Below are positions 5,165-60,362 of a stretch of 64,000 nt of DNA, piece after piece; within the stretch, counting starts at the first letter, position 1, and every line of letters starts with the position of its first letter. The translations under genes were made by a program, and so were the position numbers. The stretch comes from Siphonodentalium dalli (lineage: Eukaryota > Mollusca > Scaphopoda > Gadilida > Siphonodentaliidae): assembly GCA_032622095.1 (NCBI GenBank), contig CP136064.1, positions 172,554,310 to 172,618,309 of the forward strand. The letters are read 5' to 3'. The notes below the pieces were generated by a model. That model did not search any database, was not told the origin of the DNA, and worked only from the letters and a program-made list of their open reading frames with translations.

Positions 5165-5455
5165 GCCCCGGTGCATGGTCCAATCGGTAGAGTGCCAGGT
5201 GCATTACACCGTCACATGCCGTCCAGCGCTGACGAAGCTGGTTCGAACCCCACCATAGGGAGGGTGACCGGAATCGTGTATCTGTGCAAGTTTGTCAGTT
5301 GATTTCCGGGGGTCGGTGGTTTCTACACGCAGTGGGACAATTTCTCGGTGAAATCAAGCCTCTGCGTGGTCTTTCCTCCACCTGTAAAATTGACAACGTC
5401 GTGTGTGGCCTAGCGGCTAGAACGACGATAAACCCTAATAAACCAAACAAATCCA
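5165..5455 (+). mobile_element. tRNA-derived SINE, full-length-looking
   Basis: Has an RNA polymerase III promoter-like head: box A-like 'tggtccaatcggtagagtg' at 5176-5194 and box B-like 'ggttcgaaccc' at 5240-5250. A body follows with 'gtcggtggtttctacacg' and 'ggtctttcctccacctg', then a tail 'cgataaaccctaataaacca'. The 'ggtggtttc...tcctcc...gataaac' layout resembles the tails I know from bivalve SINEs, but the family name is not assigned. Confidence 0.8.
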
Positions 5456-44900: not shown

Positions 44901-47900
44901 TATTATCTGAACATTTCCTAAAGGAACTACTCGTCAATGAGTATTAGTAAAGAAAGAGTTATTGGAATAACACAATAATCAACAAACCTGGCTGTTTGAA
45001 CTCGTTGGGGATGATACATCTGACAAAGTGAGGATGAGTCGTGTACAAGTTCTTCATCAGCTTGTTCAATGATTCCTGAAAACATAACATTGCCATAAAC
45101 AAAGTGCACATTACTTCATTTTTTTTATAATTTATTTTTATTTTTCATAGTCTGTCTCAATTACATATTAAAGTTGTACATAATAAATATACATTAAACA
45201 TGAAAAAATAAATTCTTATAACAATATATCTATTATCACATGCACACTTGAATAATCTCTGTTTTTGAAACTTATCCTTTTTCTTGTTCTGTCTTATTAA
45301 ATTATCTATAGCATTTTTTCTTGCTAAAGTGTCATTTTGACAGTTATTCTTTTTTTAATTCAGTGCACATTACTTGTTATGAGTTTCGCATACTATATCC
45401 ATAAAGTTTGAGAGAAAATGTGACAAAGTACTTTGGCCTAAAATAGTCCAGACCCCCGCCCCTACTAATTTTATCAACCCTGTAAAAACATTTTTAAAAA
45501 CCAAAACCAAAACAATTGTGTTTATAAATCTCAGGTCATTGTAAAACTGTGCTGATCAGTCGACGATCTGCATTATTCACACTGGCAGTCAGGGCTTGAA
45601 AATAGTGGTGCCCCTGTGTACACGGGCCGGTTGATGTCGCGATAATTTTTTATTAAAAATACTACCAAGGTCCAAGGCTTCATTATCCCTTCCAATGCCT
45701 ACAGTAATGTAAGCCTAATAGTGAATATTTTCAACTGATGGTGTTGATATTTCCTGGACATATTTTGTGATTTATAATTTATCAAACCCTTTCTATACTA
45801 AATGGAGTCTCCCACTCAGTTATAACATTATATATTGGAATGATTTATTATTCATCTGGATGGATGGAGGAAATGAAGAAATAAGCAGGTATCCTTGGTC
45901 CCAGATAACATACATACCCTGTGAGTAGCTGAGATAGTTTGGAAAGCAGAACTCTTCTTCTGTTTCTTGCCGCCAGCACCAGTCTCAGCTTTAATATAAT
46001 ATAATGGGAAATGAGATTGGTCCCTGCATGAGATTTGTTCAGGTCAGAGATTATGAAACATTATAAGGCATTCTCCAAATATAATAAGTTATTGGTTTGT
46101 ATTCATAATTAATAAACTAGACATCACTTCTAAACTAAAGGCACTTTTAGGGTTTAAAGCAACAAAATTTATTTTTCAAAATTAGGTGACATTTTTTGAG
46201 TTAAAAAGTCACTACAACTCAATCCATCAGTATTTTAGTTCATAATAATATGGATATCCAGAAATACAAGTTTAACAAACAGTCTAAGAATGTTTATTTG
46301 AACATCCCATTGTCAAAGAATTAACCTCTTGGGTGCTATACATCCCTACTGAGTAAGGACGTAAAATTTTCACGCTGTGTGTTGTAAGTCCATACTGAGA
46401 ACAGACCTACTTCAGCACACTAGCAGTTGGCAATTTATCATAACTGGAACACAGAATTAGTGCATCGGAATGATGCCTTTAATAATCGACTCCTTATACC
46501 ACAGCAGAATTATGGGTAATATATCAGGATTTCGCTGAGAGCTTTCAGATGAATGGCAACAATCCATTTTCCGACTAAATCCTGAAAAATTACCCATAAT
46601 TCTGCTGTGGTTAAAGAATCAATTATTTAGGATATAACTGTATGATATGTACGTGGTTTTGTAAACAGCATAGATACTACAGGCTCCTTTGACTCTCCAA
46701 GAAGAGAGACAACTGTCTCATTGAGAGGGTCCTTGTTCTTGTCCAACCAGTTGGCAATACTGTAGTTAACCTGTTAATGATAAAAAAGAAGCTGCATTTA
46801 AAGATCTGTTAAAGATACCCCATCCAATTAGTATAAATTTCTTAAAGGGACACTGTACACTACCTCTAGCCATTTATAATTCTTTCAGAGCACATTCAAT
46901 GAGTGTATTTTGAACTAATCGATGGCTCAAATTCATTCATTTGTTGCATATATTATTTTGAGATGGTCCCATAAATGGCCGGATTAAATGTACAGTCCCC
47001 CTTTAAGACAATTTTCTGCTTATCAGGCAAAACAAAAAGAACAATACTTGCAATCACCATCATTTGAATGGCACATGCATCGCAAAAGTCCATAAATTCA
47101 TCCATCAGTAGTATGCTGTAAAACTAGTACAAAAGATCATAATTGAAAACGCTCTTGATTAAATACCACATATGGTGAAAAATAGCTCATAGACAATCTT
47201 TATCAGAGACAATCATTGGAATCTTTTACATCTCTGACAAAAATCCAACATGTTCTAAAAACTTTCTCTTTTGAATCTGACCTTCAATACCTCCTATTAA
47301 TGGGCTCATGAATACGATTAACCCTTCCATGGCTGGAGCTTCCTGAAATTTAGCTAAAACTCTGTGCCATTGCATTCTCTTATATATATATATGCGAGGC
47401 TCCCTATGAGAGCCTAACAATATTTACCTTGATCTTGTAAACCAGTGCGGTCTCTTGTTTATGCCAGGCAGCCTATGGGAGACTTGCATATATAAGAGAA
47501 ATGCACTGGCACAGGCTCTTTACTGCTGCGCTAGCGTAGCATCCCACCATGAAAGGGTTAATTTCTTAATGTTATAACTTACAGTTCCAGCATAGTGATG
47601 GAGAGCAAAGTGTGCATCACCGACACCCTGCTTCTGTTTGCCAGGCTTTCCAAAGTTCTCAGATTTTCCCATGTGGTTCTGGTACAATTTGTCCTGGAAA
47701 GATTTGTCTGTTGCTTTTGGGAACATGCATTCTTCTTCCAAGATGGATAAGATACCCAAAGGCTGTAAAAGAAATGAAAAATTGAGCATTATATGTTAAA
47801 AGGATATTTGGTGAGATATCAAAATGTCTACTCAGAATGTATAACAGTAAAATTGAAAGGGTGAATTCATTCACTAACAAAGGGTTGCATGAACTAAGAA

Positions 47901-50900
47901 CTTCAGACGATTATAGTCCTCAGTACATTTCTAATTAACTTCAGTAATGCCCTAAATAATGGACTCCTTAACCACACAAGAATTATGGGAAACTTTTCAG
48001 TATTTAGTTGGAAATATGACTTGTTGCCATTCATCGTAAAGCTCTCAGTGAGAGCTTTCCGATGAATGGCAACAAGCCATATTTCCGACTAAATCCCGAA
48101 AAATTACCCATAATTCTGCAGTGGTTAAGGAGTCGATTATTTAGGGCATTACTGTACAGTCTTCAGATTACACACCTTTTCAATCAAGTCAATGCAAGCC
48201 TGCAAGTCCATACCGAAGTCAATGAACTCCCACTGGATACCTTCCTTGGCATAACATTCCTGTTCCAGGACAAACATGTGATGATTGAAGAACTGTTGCA
48301 GTCGCTCATTGGTGTAGTTGATGCAAAGCTGCTCAAAGCTGTTAAACTGTAAAGAATAGACATCACACCTTTAAAGATGTATTCAGGATTCTCGGCTAAT
48401 TTTTCAGAAAAACTGTTTTACATTTTACTTAGATTCTAGTGCATAAAATATTTGAAATTTATAGATGTATACGTAATATTGGGTTTTCAACTTTTTATTA
48501 AAAATCAAAGCAGAACGTTGTTAAATTATTTTTTTTTAAGTTGCTCCGGTAATTGGTGATCTGGAACCTGAATACACAGTTATTGATGGCAACAGAAGTA
48601 AAGTTGATTCATAATTCACACAAAATGGAGTCTCATTGCACGAAACAAATGGATTTTGTTATAACAAGTTTATTTGCTTGGTATTTTATTTTAATTAACT
48701 TAATGTTCAAATGCCAATTTATTTATTTTCCAAGAAATCAATATTCAGTTTTATTCATGAACTGCATCATAGAGATAAAAATATACATTCAGCCAAGATT
48801 TAACTTCAAGTATTATCCTATAGTCCAAAATATAAAATAAAGATGCCTAGAAAAAACCAAACCATTTCTACTTACGTCAAAAATTTCAAAACCGGCAATA
48901 TCTAGTACACCAATGAAATAGTTTCTCTTGGCCTTGGTATCCAGAGTCTTGTTGATTCTGATGACAAGCCAGCGGAACATTCTGTCATAAGTGGATTTAG
49001 CCAGTGCAGAGATTGAATAGACAACCTGATCCTTGGTTCGGCCTTGTGTGACAAATTCATTTCCGACTTTGATCTTTGGCTTGAGTAGGCCTTTCACCAA
49101 GTCACCAGCATTGATTCCCATGAGGAAAGCAACCTTCTCTGACTCTATAAAGGGATAGATACAGTATTGTATTCACTATACAATAATAAAACTACACTAC
49201 AATGAATAGCAGTTCTTTTAGACAATTAAATGAGATAAAAGTAAACAGGAAGTGGGGTTAAAAAATTATGGTACCATCACAAAAGCTTACAATGTCCAAC
49301 TTGCAATTTTTCAGTTATTTGTGTGCGTGTTTATTATGGTTTCTCAATTCGGCCAAAGTTTCTGCAAATGGCCTAATAATTTCAGAAATGGCCATAAGAA
49401 TGTTCATGGCCAGTGTGAACCCTGCTCTCACCAAGCCTTCAAATAGTGTGCCTGTCATCTTGAAAATGAGGTTCCCAGAGGGTGAATTTAGTGATGCTAT
49501 CCCGCATGGGGGGGGGGGGGGCTAGCATCAACAAAGTCACCTTCTGGGAACCTCATTCTGCTTAGGCATCAACTGCTATGAGAGACCTAGGTTCAGATTG
49601 AAGCTCCCCAGTTGAAGTTGGTGATGTTCACCAATTATCACCTCGATTATGCATTTTATCTTCTGCTAATTAGTTGATATATAAAAAGGATATAGAAAAA
49701 GTAACTAAAAACAATGTTAATTTGAGACTATATATACTTCCCAGAAGATGAGGCCTAAGCAGAATGAGGTCCCCAGAGGCTCTCACCAAACACTACCACA
49801 ACTATAAACCAAACACTCTAACCACTGTGATCTCTGCAGATTTTAGTCCAGTACAACAATATGATTTAGATTTATTGGGGGGTTATCTTCGTTTCAGCCA
49901 TTAGACCATATCACGATGTCAGTTTTATGGGTGAAGGAAAGATCACAAAGGCGGTTAATAACACTGGGAAATAAATGCACCACACATAGAAAACACTGTC
50001 TTCAGGAAAGTAACTAAAAATCTGCTCAGATATATTATTTTTAAAAGTATAATACATTTTTCCTTAAAGAAAGCCTGAACACTGAACTATATGGATATAT
50101 GTCCTGCTTTGTAAACCACAGTAGGAAAGGGGTTAACTTTTTGGTCGCCTCTTGACGTCTATTGGCTTGCCCAGATTTAGTCACGCATGAACTGTCCAAA
50201 TATAACCGGATGTATGCGATGAGAATCGTTAGTTTTATTTCCGACTCAATCAGGAGATTGACAAGTTGCGGGGTTGGGAATGGCACCGCCATGGGAGGGA
50301 CTTATGATAGTTCTGTGTTCAGGCTTTCTTTAAGGAAAAATGTATCATACTTTTAAAAATAATATTTTTCCGCTAAAGGAAGCCTTTCACACTGAACTAT
50401 ATGGATTAGAATGCAAGCCCAGGAGGAGGCACGAGCAATAAAGTTAATAGCCAAAGTTAGAGGGAAATGTACTCTTCTAAACAGATTGCACATAAATATG
50501 AACTCTTAATGAATCTGTGTACCTCCCCCCTTGTTTTGGAAGACAGGTGTGTGAAACACAAAATTCAAAAAGATACGGCCCTTAGATCTTGTTGGCTTCG
50601 CAGTAGGAATAAAACTAACGATTCTCATCGCATACAGCCGGTTATATTGGGACAGTTCATGCGTGACTAATCTGGGCAAGACAATAGACGTCAGGAGGCG
50701 AACAAAAAGTTAACCCCTTTCCTACTGTGGTTTACAAAGCAGGATATATGTCCATATAGTTCAGTGTGAAAGGCTTCCTTTAGCGGAAAAATATGAATCA
50801 GGTTACCTTTTCTTTGCATGGATTACAAATCAGGTTATCAAGTTCCCTTTGCATGGATAAGATATCCATGCCTATCGGGAATCAAACCACTGAGTTTTCC

Positions 50901-53900
50901 AATTGTAGGAAGGCTGAGCCATGCAGCTCACCAACTTAGCCACCACTCCAAAGTGCAATGAAAGTGTCAATGAAACTGTAGCTCAACTTGGAGAAGGATA
51001 ATTTCATGTGTTACAGCCAATATGGAGTGATTAGGGACACGGAATTGTTAAATTTGATAGCTCCCAGCTAGAGGTGATGTTTTTTTTTTTTTAAATTTGA
51101 AAATATCGGAGGGTCTCATCTAGAGGTTATCCTGAAGATCCATATAAAGTTTGGTGACATTCGGATTAGAGATGTGACATGTAGAATGTGTGCAAGGATT
51201 TAGTGATGCAAATAGTAAATCCAAGATGGCCTCTGGCGACCATGATTTTTCAACAAAATTCGGAAAACATTGATAACTCCAATCTAATGGTCATCCCGAA
51301 GATCCATATGAAGTCTGGTAACAATCGGATGAGGGATGCTGTCTGTAGGGTGTGCCGAAGGATGCAAAGACGCAAAGAGTCAGCCATGGTTTTCATCGAA
51401 AATAGTTCAAATTTGATAGCTCCTGTCTAGAGGTGATCCTAAACATGCCTGTAAATTTTCAAAACAATTCTCCAATAAATGTGGGCTGCAAGGTGTGCTG
51501 ATGGATCCCATCGTGAGGTCACCCCCAAGATCCATAAGAAGATTGGTGATGATCGGATGAGAGATGTAACCTGTAGGGTGTGTGAAAGCAGGGTTTACGC
51601 TAGGGGGTAGGGGAATGGGGCCGGTAGCCGTCAAGGGGAAAAATCCAGGTAAAAGTAGCCTGTTTTAGCACTGGTTGAACTACTTTCGTTATATCGGCCA
51701 ATAGAATTGTGTGAGAGTAGAAATGGCAGATTGTTTTGTTCCATTTCTGCCCAAGTGCCAAGCTATCAAACCTTATATTACATGTACCTGTAACTTTAAA
51801 ACTTGTAAATTTATTAGATATAAATTAATTTACGAAGTACAGAACACCAGTAATTTGGATCCCGAGTTAAACGTGCTCGTTAATGTTAAAAGACTCACTG
51901 TGGAAGACCCAGCAGATATTTCGGATGCATAACGTAATCGGAATATATTTTAGCAGCTGCAGTGTAAATATAGAAGGCTGATTACATATCTGGCCGATGA
52001 GTATTCTTTGTGGGCAGTGGTAAGTTGCCTTGATGCCTGGTGCGGCTACTCCCACATTTCTCTCTCGCACTATTACAAAGTGAACAGTATATTTTGCGGT
52101 ATAAAACATGACAGGTACGATTAAAATACTGCTCTTTTGCATAACATAACCGGGTTCTAATCGCAACGTAACTAACCAGCCTCAAAGGCATACCTTCTAG
52201 CAATGTCAGTTCCGACCACTTCCTGTTTCAATTTTCAGTATAACAACGCGTTTAGAGTGTGTGCACTCACAAGATATAAAATAAATTCACCTTTTAAAAT
52301 TCCTTAGTACTATTCCAACAAAATTCAGAAGTTTTAAACATCTTTATACCTTTATAGACATGCAGTATGTCCTGGGGTATGGCATGAGGGGAAAACTTGG
52401 CGAGGGGAACGGGGCCGTCAAGGGGACCCCCTGCCGGTATAGCGGAAACCCTGGTGAAAGGATTTAGTTATGGAATTTTTTTTAACAAATTTCAGTAAAA
52501 ATAGGAGGCTCCCATCTCGAGGTCACCCCAAATATCAAGTTTGGTGATGCTCGGATTCACGAGAGATGTGATCTGTAAAGTTTACTAAAGGAAATTGTTG
52601 ACAAATCATGGATGCCCCAACACATGGATGCACAGACAGATGCCAACCCATAGCAATAGCTCAAACTTGACTTCATCAAGTTAAGCTAGCGATGGCTCAT
52701 TCAGCATTATATATGCCCAAACATACCAGCTGATCCGTCAGCCTCAGCCTGCTCTTCTCTTGGCCTCTGTTTGAATTTCATTTCTCCAAACTGAACAACA
52801 GCAGATGTAATCTTGTACATGCTTTGTTTTTCTTCCTTAGTGAAGCCCAGTACATCAAAGGCAGCCTATAAATGACATAAAGAAAACTCTTGTACAGTGA
52901 AACCTCTCCAAACCGCGGACCCTCTATAACTCGAATCCCTCTCAATACCAAGCAAATTGTCTAGTCCTGAATTCAACCAAGTGCATTCTCACTAAAAATT
53001 ACCTCTGTAAACCGGAACCTCTCTATTCCGAACATCAGATGGATTTTTTAGTCCATAGGTGCAAATTTATTAATTTTTACCTCTGAAATACAAACCCGGA
53101 AAGTGATACCAAATGAATGCGCATGCGGTAGATTTAACATACAGTAATGCCCTAAGTAATCGACTCCTTAAACACAGCAGAATTATGGGTAACTTTTCAG
53201 GATTTAGTCGGAAAGATGGCTTGTTGCCATTCATCGGAAAGCTCTCCCCTGAGAGCTTTCCGATGAATGGCAACAAGCCATATTTCCGACTAAATCCTGA
53301 AAAGTTACCCATAATTCTGCTGTGTTTAAGGAGTCGATTACTTAGGGCATTACTGTACTTGATGCTTGCAGAGCTCTTAAATTGTTGACTCTGGTGTAGA
53401 CTGGGGATCTTTTCTAAGTTTAAATTTCTGGTCTGAGGGGTTGTTTTCGTGATGGCTCATTCATTGTGATAGGTTGATTAAAACTGTATTGATGACAATA
53501 CACTACCATTGCTTACTTTGAGTGAATTAGTGTTTAGTTTGAGTCCAACTCGTAAAAACAAAGTGTCAGTGCTCTAATTCTCCATGTCGAGGTCACCATT
53601 GTTCACTCAATGTGTGAAATAAGCACACAGTTATCTAATCAAACACCTGATGTTATAATCTGTTCACCGAATAAGACCGCTAATTAAATCAGTACGCATA
53701 TACAAGAGTACAAAACCTGTGCTACTATATCAGCGACATTTAAAAAAAAATGCGAATCGCTGTAAAGTTTATCACTTCCATGTTTCCTGTTTTATCTATG
53801 CTTGCATTATGTCTTATTAATTATACTACGTTTTAATTCTTATTATACCTGATTATACCATGTTTTATCTATTGTTATTATATTTTATTTGGTGATTTAT

Positions 53901-56900
53901 TGAACGAAGTTAATTAATCAATAATGATTTGGCTGTGCTTCGACAATGCTTAGTAATGACGGCAATAGATTCCGATCATAGTGCGATTTTCTATAAACCG
54001 AACACCTCTAAACCAAACAGAAGGTGCGGTCCGAAGGGTGTTCGGTTTGGAGATGTTTTACTGTAGTCAAAGGAGAAAAATTATCTGTATTGAATTCTAC
54101 ACAAAATTCAATATTTTCTGTTTACAAACAAAACAAGTTTCCTGAGAAGCGGGGGAACCTTATAGTGAACTTTTCCCACCAATGAATAGGATTCTTCTGC
54201 ACTTGTATTATCTGTTTTTCTGTCTGTCATCTGCTTATTTTTCTTGAACATCCCTCAGGATGAATAATTGACCATTCCAATGTGTACTTTTATAACTGAA
54301 TGAGAGAATTCATTCAGTAATTTAAAGAAAGTGTTATTGTAATCTCTCACAGGTTGGGCTTTCTGAAAATTTTAGGAGAACGATTTACCAAGGAGTGAAA
54401 TTGCTCCATGGACCCTCCAAATTCTTATACAAATGATCTAATGTTGAAGTTGGTTAAAAAAAGAATTATATCTAAAGGTTCACTTAATGTTTGAAAACCC
54501 AGGTCACATTATATACAACATATTATATACAGTAATGCCCTAAGTAATCGACTCCTTAACCACAGCAGAATTATGGGTAACTTTACAGGATTTAGTCGGA
54601 AATATGGCTTGTTGCCATTCATCGGAAAGCTCTCCCCTGAGAGCTTTCCGATGAATGGCAACAAGCCATATTTCCGACTAAATCCTGAAAAGTTACCCAT
54701 AATTCTGCTGTGTTTAAGGAGTCGATTACTTAGGGCATTACTGTACTTGATGCTTGCTGAGCTCTTAAATTGTTGACTCTGGTGTAGACTGGGGATCTTT
54801 TCTAAGTTTAAATTTCAACAAGCCATATTTGGGAGAATCCATTCAGAAGCCATATTTGGGAGAATCCATTCAATATAGAAAGGATTAAAGATTTTGAACT
54901 CACATCAGTGATTTTCATTTCATCGACATCATCAATTCCATCGACAATCATTGTTCCTTGGTTGATATTGGAGTAAAGTCCAGGATCAGCTTGGATCAAG
55001 GCCACCTCTGGAAAATATAAGTGTCAAATGCAACAGTCAAACAAAAATAATACCAGAGAAGTAGCATATAAGTGGCGCGCACTTGTTCTTCAATCCTGTT
55101 GCCGAATGTGTGTATTTATATGCATATATTGCAAATAAATATGTTTAAACGAAACCAGAGATTGAGAAGCTTGAATGCTGAATAATACTACAAAGAGTCT
55201 ATGACATTGGTCTGACATTTTGTGTGGGCAGCGAAAGATTCATAAATCTTACATGAATGGAATCAGTAGATGTTTGTTCAAGTTATCGCGATAATGGTCA
55301 TAAAATTGCAAACAAAATAAACAAACTGAGGGCCATAATTTTGAATTCATAAGTCAGGTCAAAATATCGGACAAACCTGGTTTTCAAACACAATCAAGAT
55401 ATTGTTGTGAAGGGGTCACATATCAAATATGAATGGAATCAGTTGACATTTGTTAGAGTTATCATGCTAACGGTCATAAATATTTTCTGAAAATAGACAA
55501 ACTGAGGGCCGGAACTCTGGGTAAACAAGGGTTGCACACCAAAGATGGTGCTTGTCGAGTTTTTTTGCCTATAAGAGTGAATAGATCTGTCGAACCAATA
55601 ATCACTAAAAATGGACGAACAAAGGAGTCATAACTCAGAACTATTGGTCATAAACTCAGATAAAGCTAGGAAATAAATGGATGGTATATGGTTGAGTTAT
55701 CGCAATAAATGGCTGAAAAATAGACAAACTAAGGGCCATAAGCCAGCTTGAGTTATCGTGTGCTTAAGTTCATAAAAATGGTTCTCCCAGTAAGTTCCAC
55801 AACTATACTTGTACATGTATTGAAATACTCCATTTTTCATTTGTAGGGCTTTCAGATACTTTAAGCAGTCTACAGGCAGAGAAAATTTCTTAAGGATTCA
55901 TATGTAGGTTGATGTTTGTTCAAGTCAACAAGCTAACAGTCATAAAAGTGCTAAAAATAGAAACAAAGGGCTATAAGTCAGGTAAACAAAATGAGACAAA
56001 CCCGGTTTTGAATTCGATCGAGATATTGTTGTGAAAGCTTCATATATCAAATATGAATGTAATCGGTGGACGTTTGTTCAAGTTATTTCGCTAACGGTCA
56101 TAAAATTGTTAAAAATAGACAAACTAGTAATTCAGGTAAAATAAATTGGATACATCTGATATTTTAAGTTGACCGAGATATTGTTGTGAAAGATCCATAT
56201 ACCAAATATGAATGAAATTGGTTGACATATGTTCATGTTATCCGCTAACGGACATAAATTTCCTAAAATTGCTAAAAAAAAATAGACGAACTAATGGCCA
56301 TAAGTCAGGTAAAAAAATCAGACAAATCTGATTTTCAAACTTGGCTAAGATATTGTTGTGAAAGATCCAAATTTGTTAACATTTGGTGAAGTTATCACAA
56401 TAACGAATATAAAAATGCTATAAATAAAAACAAGTGCCATAACTCTGGTTAGAAAGTCGAGGCAGAACCAATTTTATGTGTGCAGCTGTCGCACATGACA
56501 ATAAACTCAAATGCCAAAATTCATCAAACTGCCAAAATCCATCAATAAATGCCATGTCATAAAGTTTTAGGGCCACCAGCCAGCTCAGTTGCCACTGCAA
56601 CCGTCCCTCATCAAACCGTAAGTCAAGATTTGATTAGAACAAATTCAACTAAGAAATCGGACAAACCTAGTTTTCGAGTTGAGGTATAAGTTCAAGTGGG
56701 GGGTATATTTACCATGTATGGCAGGAATAGTGGGGGTATATTTACCATGTATGGCAGGAATAGTGGGGGTATATTTACCATGTATGGCAGGAATAGTGGG
56801 GGTATATTTATCATGTATGGCAGGAATAGTGGGGGTATATTTACCATGTATGGCAGGAATAGTGGGGGTATATTTACCATGTATGGCAGGAATAGTGGGG

Positions 56901-60149: not shown

Positions 60150-60362
60150 CAGTATTGCCCTAAATAATTGACTCTTTAACGACAGCAGAATTATGGGTAA
60201 CTTTTCAGGATATAGTCGGAAATATGGCCTGTTGCCATTCATCGGAAAGCTCTCAGTGAGAGCTTTCCGATGAATGGCAACAAGCCATATTTCCACCTAA
60301 ATCCTGAAAAATTGCCCATAATTCTGCTGTGGTTAAGGAGTTGATTATTTAGGGCATTACTC
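60150..60362. mobile_element. Family A MITE, complete palindrome
   Basis: 'cagtattgccctaaataatt' ... 'atttagggcattactct' with decayed outermost bases; arms near perfect, meeting at 'aaagctctcagtgagagcttt'-type centre. Confidence 0.94.

Follow-up and report, generated by a model that had tools for sequence, protein, structure and literature searches.

A 33-bp minisatellite repeats the 5' splice donor of a myosin motor exon nine times, in frame, in the scaphopod Siphonodentalium dalli

We identified a 33-bp minisatellite lying across the 5' splice site of a motor exon in a muscle myosin heavy chain (Mhc) gene of the scaphopod Siphonodentalium dalli. Each of its nine copies carries the end of the exon together with the splice donor, and the myosin frame is open throughout. 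In the reading to which we give an even chance, the minisatellite is recent, the first donor (donor 1) makes the working myosin, and the downstream donors supply at most a minor ladder of in-frame products. The gene lies on the minus strand of the window, by which we mean the whole 64,000-nucleotide stretch of DNA analysed. The features discussed below are, in window coordinates:

59591..59654, minus strand: motor exon w1, with donor TTT/GTAAGT (the slash marks the exon end)
56977..57075, minus strand: exon w2, 33 residues, ending at the ancestral donor 1 (peptide match and sister loci)
56699..56994, minus strand: 33-bp minisatellite, nine copies, each with exon end and donor (TRF, copy alignment and genome search)
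56713..56944, minus strand: duplicated donors 2-9, last exonic bases at 56944, 56911, 56878, 56845, 56812 (AT), 56779, 56746 and 56713
55008..56976, minus strand: intron w2-w3 as spliced from donor 1, containing the array and degenerate repeats, some spaced about 155-176 bp
54904..55007, minus strand: exon w3, 35 residues, predicted equivalent of Drosophila exon 7 (ATP-lip), from the scallop match

The gene was recognized from peptide matches and genomic context, and ten motor exons were located between 59654 and 44986. P-loop and switch-1 motifs are present just upstream of the window (in L021), and tail-like coiled-coil stretches occur farther down the window. A 436-residue query made from the joined window exons matched Argopecten myosin (1DFK) over its whole length without a frameshift (E 3e-233). 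The best eight distinct chains by score were molluscan-type or scallop-like myosins; those without a name in the match table we take to be of molluscan origin. Exon w3 starts at 55007 behind the acceptor ttccag, and the predicted junction peptide of w2 and w3 is colinear with Argopecten myosin, in agreement with the proposal of the initial annotation that 56977 is joined to 55007. In a tblastn search of the window with the scallop motor (239-675), each of the ten exons was found once, along with three weak extra matches (E 5 to 8.6), one of which (40117-40079) covers part of w2. A cluster of mutually exclusive exons was ruled out on these grounds, w2 and w3 each being single in the window. A pseudogene was ruled out as well, given that the exons found are open, the seven resolved donors (w1-w6 and w9; outside this set are the w7, w8 and w10 donors and the w9 acceptor) are all GT, and the protein is constrained; this verdict covers the exons found and is not proof of an intact whole gene. 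Several introns of the window (53073-53456, 54512-54814, 60242-60361 and others) hold a dispersed repeat whose recurring translations resemble one 24-residue peptide.

TRF reported the array at 56699-56994 with a period of 33, 9.0 copies, 99% match and a score of 585. The units run head to tail at a spacing of exactly 33 bp in all nine copies, and only two positions vary among them: donor +1, which is A instead of G in copy 6, and the last base, which is C instead of A in copy 9. As first noticed in the initial annotation, and as seen in the aligned copies, eight of the nine donors keep GT and the sixth is AT. The unit contains a single GT, and no AG was present when one was sought within the 33 bp. 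Donor 1 (ATG/GTAAAT, last exonic base 56977) is the end of exon w2, and the array begins 18 nt before it. The exon-derived part repeated in each copy is therefore 18 nt long (CTATTCCTGCCATACATG), the remaining 15 nt being the start of the intron. The unit does straddle the exon-intron border, as had been claimed; the proposed division into 16 exonic and 17 intronic nucleotides is one among several equivalent cuts of the unit. Translated in the myosin frame, the nine copies give a stop-free 11-residue repeat, and the frame stays open past the array up to 56648. Splicing at donor k would thus add 11(k-1) residues, with a maximum of 88. The TRF array, the open frame and the colinearity with scallop together bear out the original observation that a myosin motor donor was copied nine times in frame, by a unit whose length is divisible by three.

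Nine copies at 99% identity are no chance match. When the 33-mer was searched in the organism's own genome (2.23 Gb, nine contigs) with up to two mismatches, by a procedure that skips very common words, only these nine places were found, and an exact 32-mer of the unit had no match in viral contigs. A dispersed repeat family as the source of the unit was thereby ruled out. The copies are nearly identical and the unit has CT as a short match at its two ends, which makes the array look like a young product of slippage. We suggest that slippage or unequal exchange built a recent minisatellite over the w2 5' splice site, in which 18 nt from the end of the exon, the donor, and 15 nt from the start of the intron would have been copied together. 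Other repeats occur nearby: the rest of the w2-w3 intron (55233-56434) contains degenerate repeats with 61-83% likeness, part of them at a spacing of 155-176 bp (TRF period 155), and a perfect 27-bp tandem duplication of two copies (54820-54872) lies downstream of the w3 donor, about 30 bp into the next intron.

The genome contains many related genes. Exon w5 matched 21 other loci, so that at least 22 Mhc loci exist including the window gene; this is a lower bound, as 96 of the 284 candidates were scored and the count leaves aside further matches on C3, on C6 and at other places on C5. Most sister loci are on contig 4, many of them at 274.2-275.5 Mb and others at 221.3-223.7 Mb, 172.48-172.80 Mb and further positions; two are no more than about 200 kb from the window gene, and contig 5 is represented at 211.3 Mb. 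One of the w5 matches (C4:158547651) has an internal TGA. The limpet Lottia is described in PMC3912159 as having seven Mhc genes in an extended tandem array.

Twenty of the 21 sister loci were read (C4:274459867 was left out), and all 20 had matches to w1-w4 (E below 0.05). Their introns were tested for a donor at the w2 end and for tandem arrays. In 19 of the 20, exon w2 ended at the codon and phase of donor 1, with a GTA donor, indicating that donor 1 is ancestral. The remaining locus, L031 (G000:C4:223724200-223734199, w2 near 5419), has an exon end one codon longer with a divergent sequence, LLTPVSAGPYH; it departs from the fixed exon length used and was read by eye. None of the 20 had an array at the w2 donor or was longer by a repeat unit, and most simply, judging from these sequences, the array arose in the window gene itself.

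Tandem arrays as such are abundant in this family: TRF listed 80 rows in the 20 sister stretches of 10 kb, and 44 of these have a copy number of three or above. Deeper in the w2-w3 intron, L024 has an array of 71 bp x 22 and L039 one of 38 bp x 9. Arrays of this kind therefore seem to arise often in the introns of Mhc genes, and here one reached a donor. No TRF array crossed any of the 160 edges of exons w1-w4 tested in the sister loci, these edges being the ends of tblastn matches; in L031 the match stops some 30 bases before the w2 junction. L024 (G000:C5:211318300-211328299) is the sister most like the window gene over w1-w4. Pairwise dN was 0.18 against a dS of 1.9 for L024 and 1.2 for L025 (131 codons, w1-w4), the only two loci with unsaturated dS, as it was saturated in the other 18 of 20. 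The Mhc exons and the gene family are thus constrained, and the pairwise ratios do not single out the window gene's own branch. The residues at the junction differ between sister genes (PAIH, PSYH, PEYH, PDLY, GPYH), suggesting no tight constraint on sequence at this place, although its length is nearly fixed.

How much the in-frame arrangement says about selection was judged against chance. When a 296-bp array was placed within 44986-59654, 25% of placements ran over one or more of 20 exon edges, part of these edges being no more than the ends of peptide matches; the position of the array is thus less surprising than it seems. A unit length divisible by three is expected for one in three lengths. 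For the 33-bp unit tried in 14 phases at seven donors of the window gene (w2 included), the frame was open in 87 of 98 trials. The open frame across the array is hence weak evidence, and an in-frame donor array by itself does not indicate selection. Nor do the copies inform on selection for the repeat peptide, since they are nearly identical.

The donors were compared by a weight matrix and by pairing with the 5' end of U1, with scores that are relative only. The eight GT donors of the array share the same sequence from -3 to +8 and all score 7.05. The next best GT within 57075-55575 scores 4.02, about 3 units lower, and six other donors of the window gene score from 5.4 to 9.1. Calculated U1 pairing ranges from -5.3 to -8.1 over the resolved donors of the gene, and the w2 donor and its seven GT copies, all at -5.3, mark the weak limit. 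Of the 19 sister donors at the place of donor 1, 15 score above the w2 donor. Donor 1 is therefore a fairly weak site, and there is scope for competition among donors. In predicted RNA folding, the unpaired probability was no higher than 0.0021 at every GT donor and 0.19-0.26 at copy 6 (AT), and the excess folding of the array over shuffled sequences was not significant (z -1.79, with five of 100 shuffles equally good). RNA structure was ruled out as the selector of the donor: burial is much the same for all intact donors, and the array's fold is not significant. Since the downstream donors are indistinguishable from donor 1 in local sequence and predicted folding, position and exonic signals must decide between them; the body of exon w2 immediately precedes donor 1 alone.

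The place at which any extra residues would be inserted could also be specified. Exon w3 is predicted to correspond to exon 7 of Drosophila Mhc (residues 298-332, ATP-lip), an equivalence based on the scallop alignment, in which the join falls after scallop residue 292, and on conserved intron positions of bilaterian Mhc genes. Conservation of intron positions in bilaterian Mhc motors is described in PMC3912159. Use of downstream donors would insert multiples of 11 residues at the edge of the ATP-lip, so the insertion site in the upper 50K domain stands as first proposed, and the "myosin loop" can be narrowed to the start of the exon 7 equivalent. In Drosophila, the exon 7 region lies at the surface of the upper 50K subdomain, where it makes up one lip of the nucleotide pocket, and swaps of exon-7 variants reportedly brought only a small rise in maximal ATPase and no change in actin velocity (PMC11944230). 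Such mild effects disfavour a large kinetic effect of an insert here, though an insert of at least 11 residues is another matter.

A close parallel is the minisatellite of the human interferon-induced gene IFI6, whose unit is 12 nt, a multiple of three, and free of in-frame stops. As in IFI6, the repeat unit of the myosin array contains a genuine 5' splice site, straddles an exon-intron border, is divisible by three and has no stop. In IFI6, the main product is a protein of 130 residues, and two downstream repeat units also serve as donors, giving three mRNAs (PMC4526556); Turri 1995 is cited in PMC3618361, PMC2572611 and PMC2915984. Unlike IFI6, with its reported downstream donor use, the myosin array has a 33-bp unit, sits on a myosin motor exon and offers candidate donors. 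By its sequence, it joins the minisatellites of IFI6 type with multiple splice donors; the kind is known, the place unusual. No minisatellite over a myosin splice donor was found in our literature search, but most subscription journals were outside it and this absence means little.

Metazoan Mhc genes have clusters of mutually exclusive exons, Drosophila exon 7 being an example (Kollmar and Hatje 2014, PMC3912159). The array resembles these clusters in that alternative splicing is predicted to alter the same motor region, the ATP-lip. It differs in that whole exons are duplicated in the clusters, whereas here the repeat takes in only the donor with 18 nt of exon end, and the window has a single w2 and a single w3. 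The creation of introns is another case for comparison: the duplicated unit must supply a donor as well as an acceptor. Tandem genomic duplication is reported as a source of intron gain in PMC4974935; splice signals are likewise multiplied within a gene in the myosin array, but its unit has no AG. With a GT and no acceptor, the array can yield no new intron, and intron gain was ruled out.

Several readings of the array were weighed. It may be inert intron, with donor 1 alone used, fixed by exon definition and enhancers in w2, and copies 2-9 never exonic. The ancestral state of donor 1 (19 of 20 sister loci), the nearly fixed junction length and the direct contact of only this donor with the body of w2 speak for such a situation. 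However, seven downstream donors share its -3 to +8 sequence and have near-identical local flanks, and the similar human array uses downstream copies (PMC4526556); we give complete inertness a modest chance. At the other extreme, the array might be a regulated or genotype-dependent length module, in which downstream donors including the last are used substantially, 11 to 88 residues are added to the ATP-lip and array length sets loop length. The frame is kept at every donor, in Drosophila the corresponding site is exposed at the surface as a lip of the nucleotide pocket (PMC11944230), and junction residues vary among sisters, L031 being one codon longer. Yet a repeat-sized insert is absent from all 20 sister loci read and from scallop, the near-identical copies carry no sign of peptide selection, a 33-bp unit mostly leaves the frame open in any case (87/98), and exon-7 swaps in Drosophila reportedly brought only a slight rise in maximal ATPase with the same actin velocity (PMC11944230). 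We consider substantial use of this kind unlikely. A myosin of variable length is possible, the open frame and the exposed site being all that would point to it. In its strongest form, downstream donors would be used in muscle and copy number would be a heritable motor setting, with myosins 0 to 88 residues longer at the ATP-pocket lip in different individuals and repeat length directly changing motor kinetics; this seems to us a very long shot.

The copies might instead act as decoys that bind U1 snRNP unproductively and lower or slow w2-w3 splicing, with array length tuning Mhc output. Eight equal donors 3 units above any other GT in 57075-55575, all predicted to be structured, would suit such a role; but the excess folding is not significant (z -1.79, five of 100 shuffles as good), and we regard it as quite improbable. 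Some points weigh against our preferred reading, a recent minisatellite with donor 1 as the working donor. An intron-proximal preference among equal donors could favour donor 9, predicted RNA folding does not favour donor 1, and the constraint seen in pairwise dN/dS is not specific to this gene's branch. SRSF1 and hnRNP A1 reportedly steer 5' splice-site choice in opposite directions (PMC5585400).

A motor of normal length requires that donor 1 be used, and under the preferred reading it would still yield one. Mainly donor 1 with a minor ladder is what likeness to IFI6 leads us to expect: the seven intact downstream donors, equal in sequence, would add n x 33 nt while introducing neither a stop nor a frameshift, and are probably used at a low level, giving a minor ladder of products with 11-residue repeats at the edge of the ATP-lip. 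We propose that the array survives because both splicing outcomes keep the frame.

The array is a natural competition experiment, in which eight donors identical from -3 to +8, with near-identical surroundings and 33 nt or multiples of it apart, are present in one pre-mRNA. The order in which they are used would gauge the effect of position by itself on the choice of a 5' splice site. Should downstream donors be used, the length of a motor-protein loop would be set by that of the repeat; if they are not, the array would show how strongly an exon holds to its own donor. With eight equal donors in a myosin motor, the array is a useful test system.
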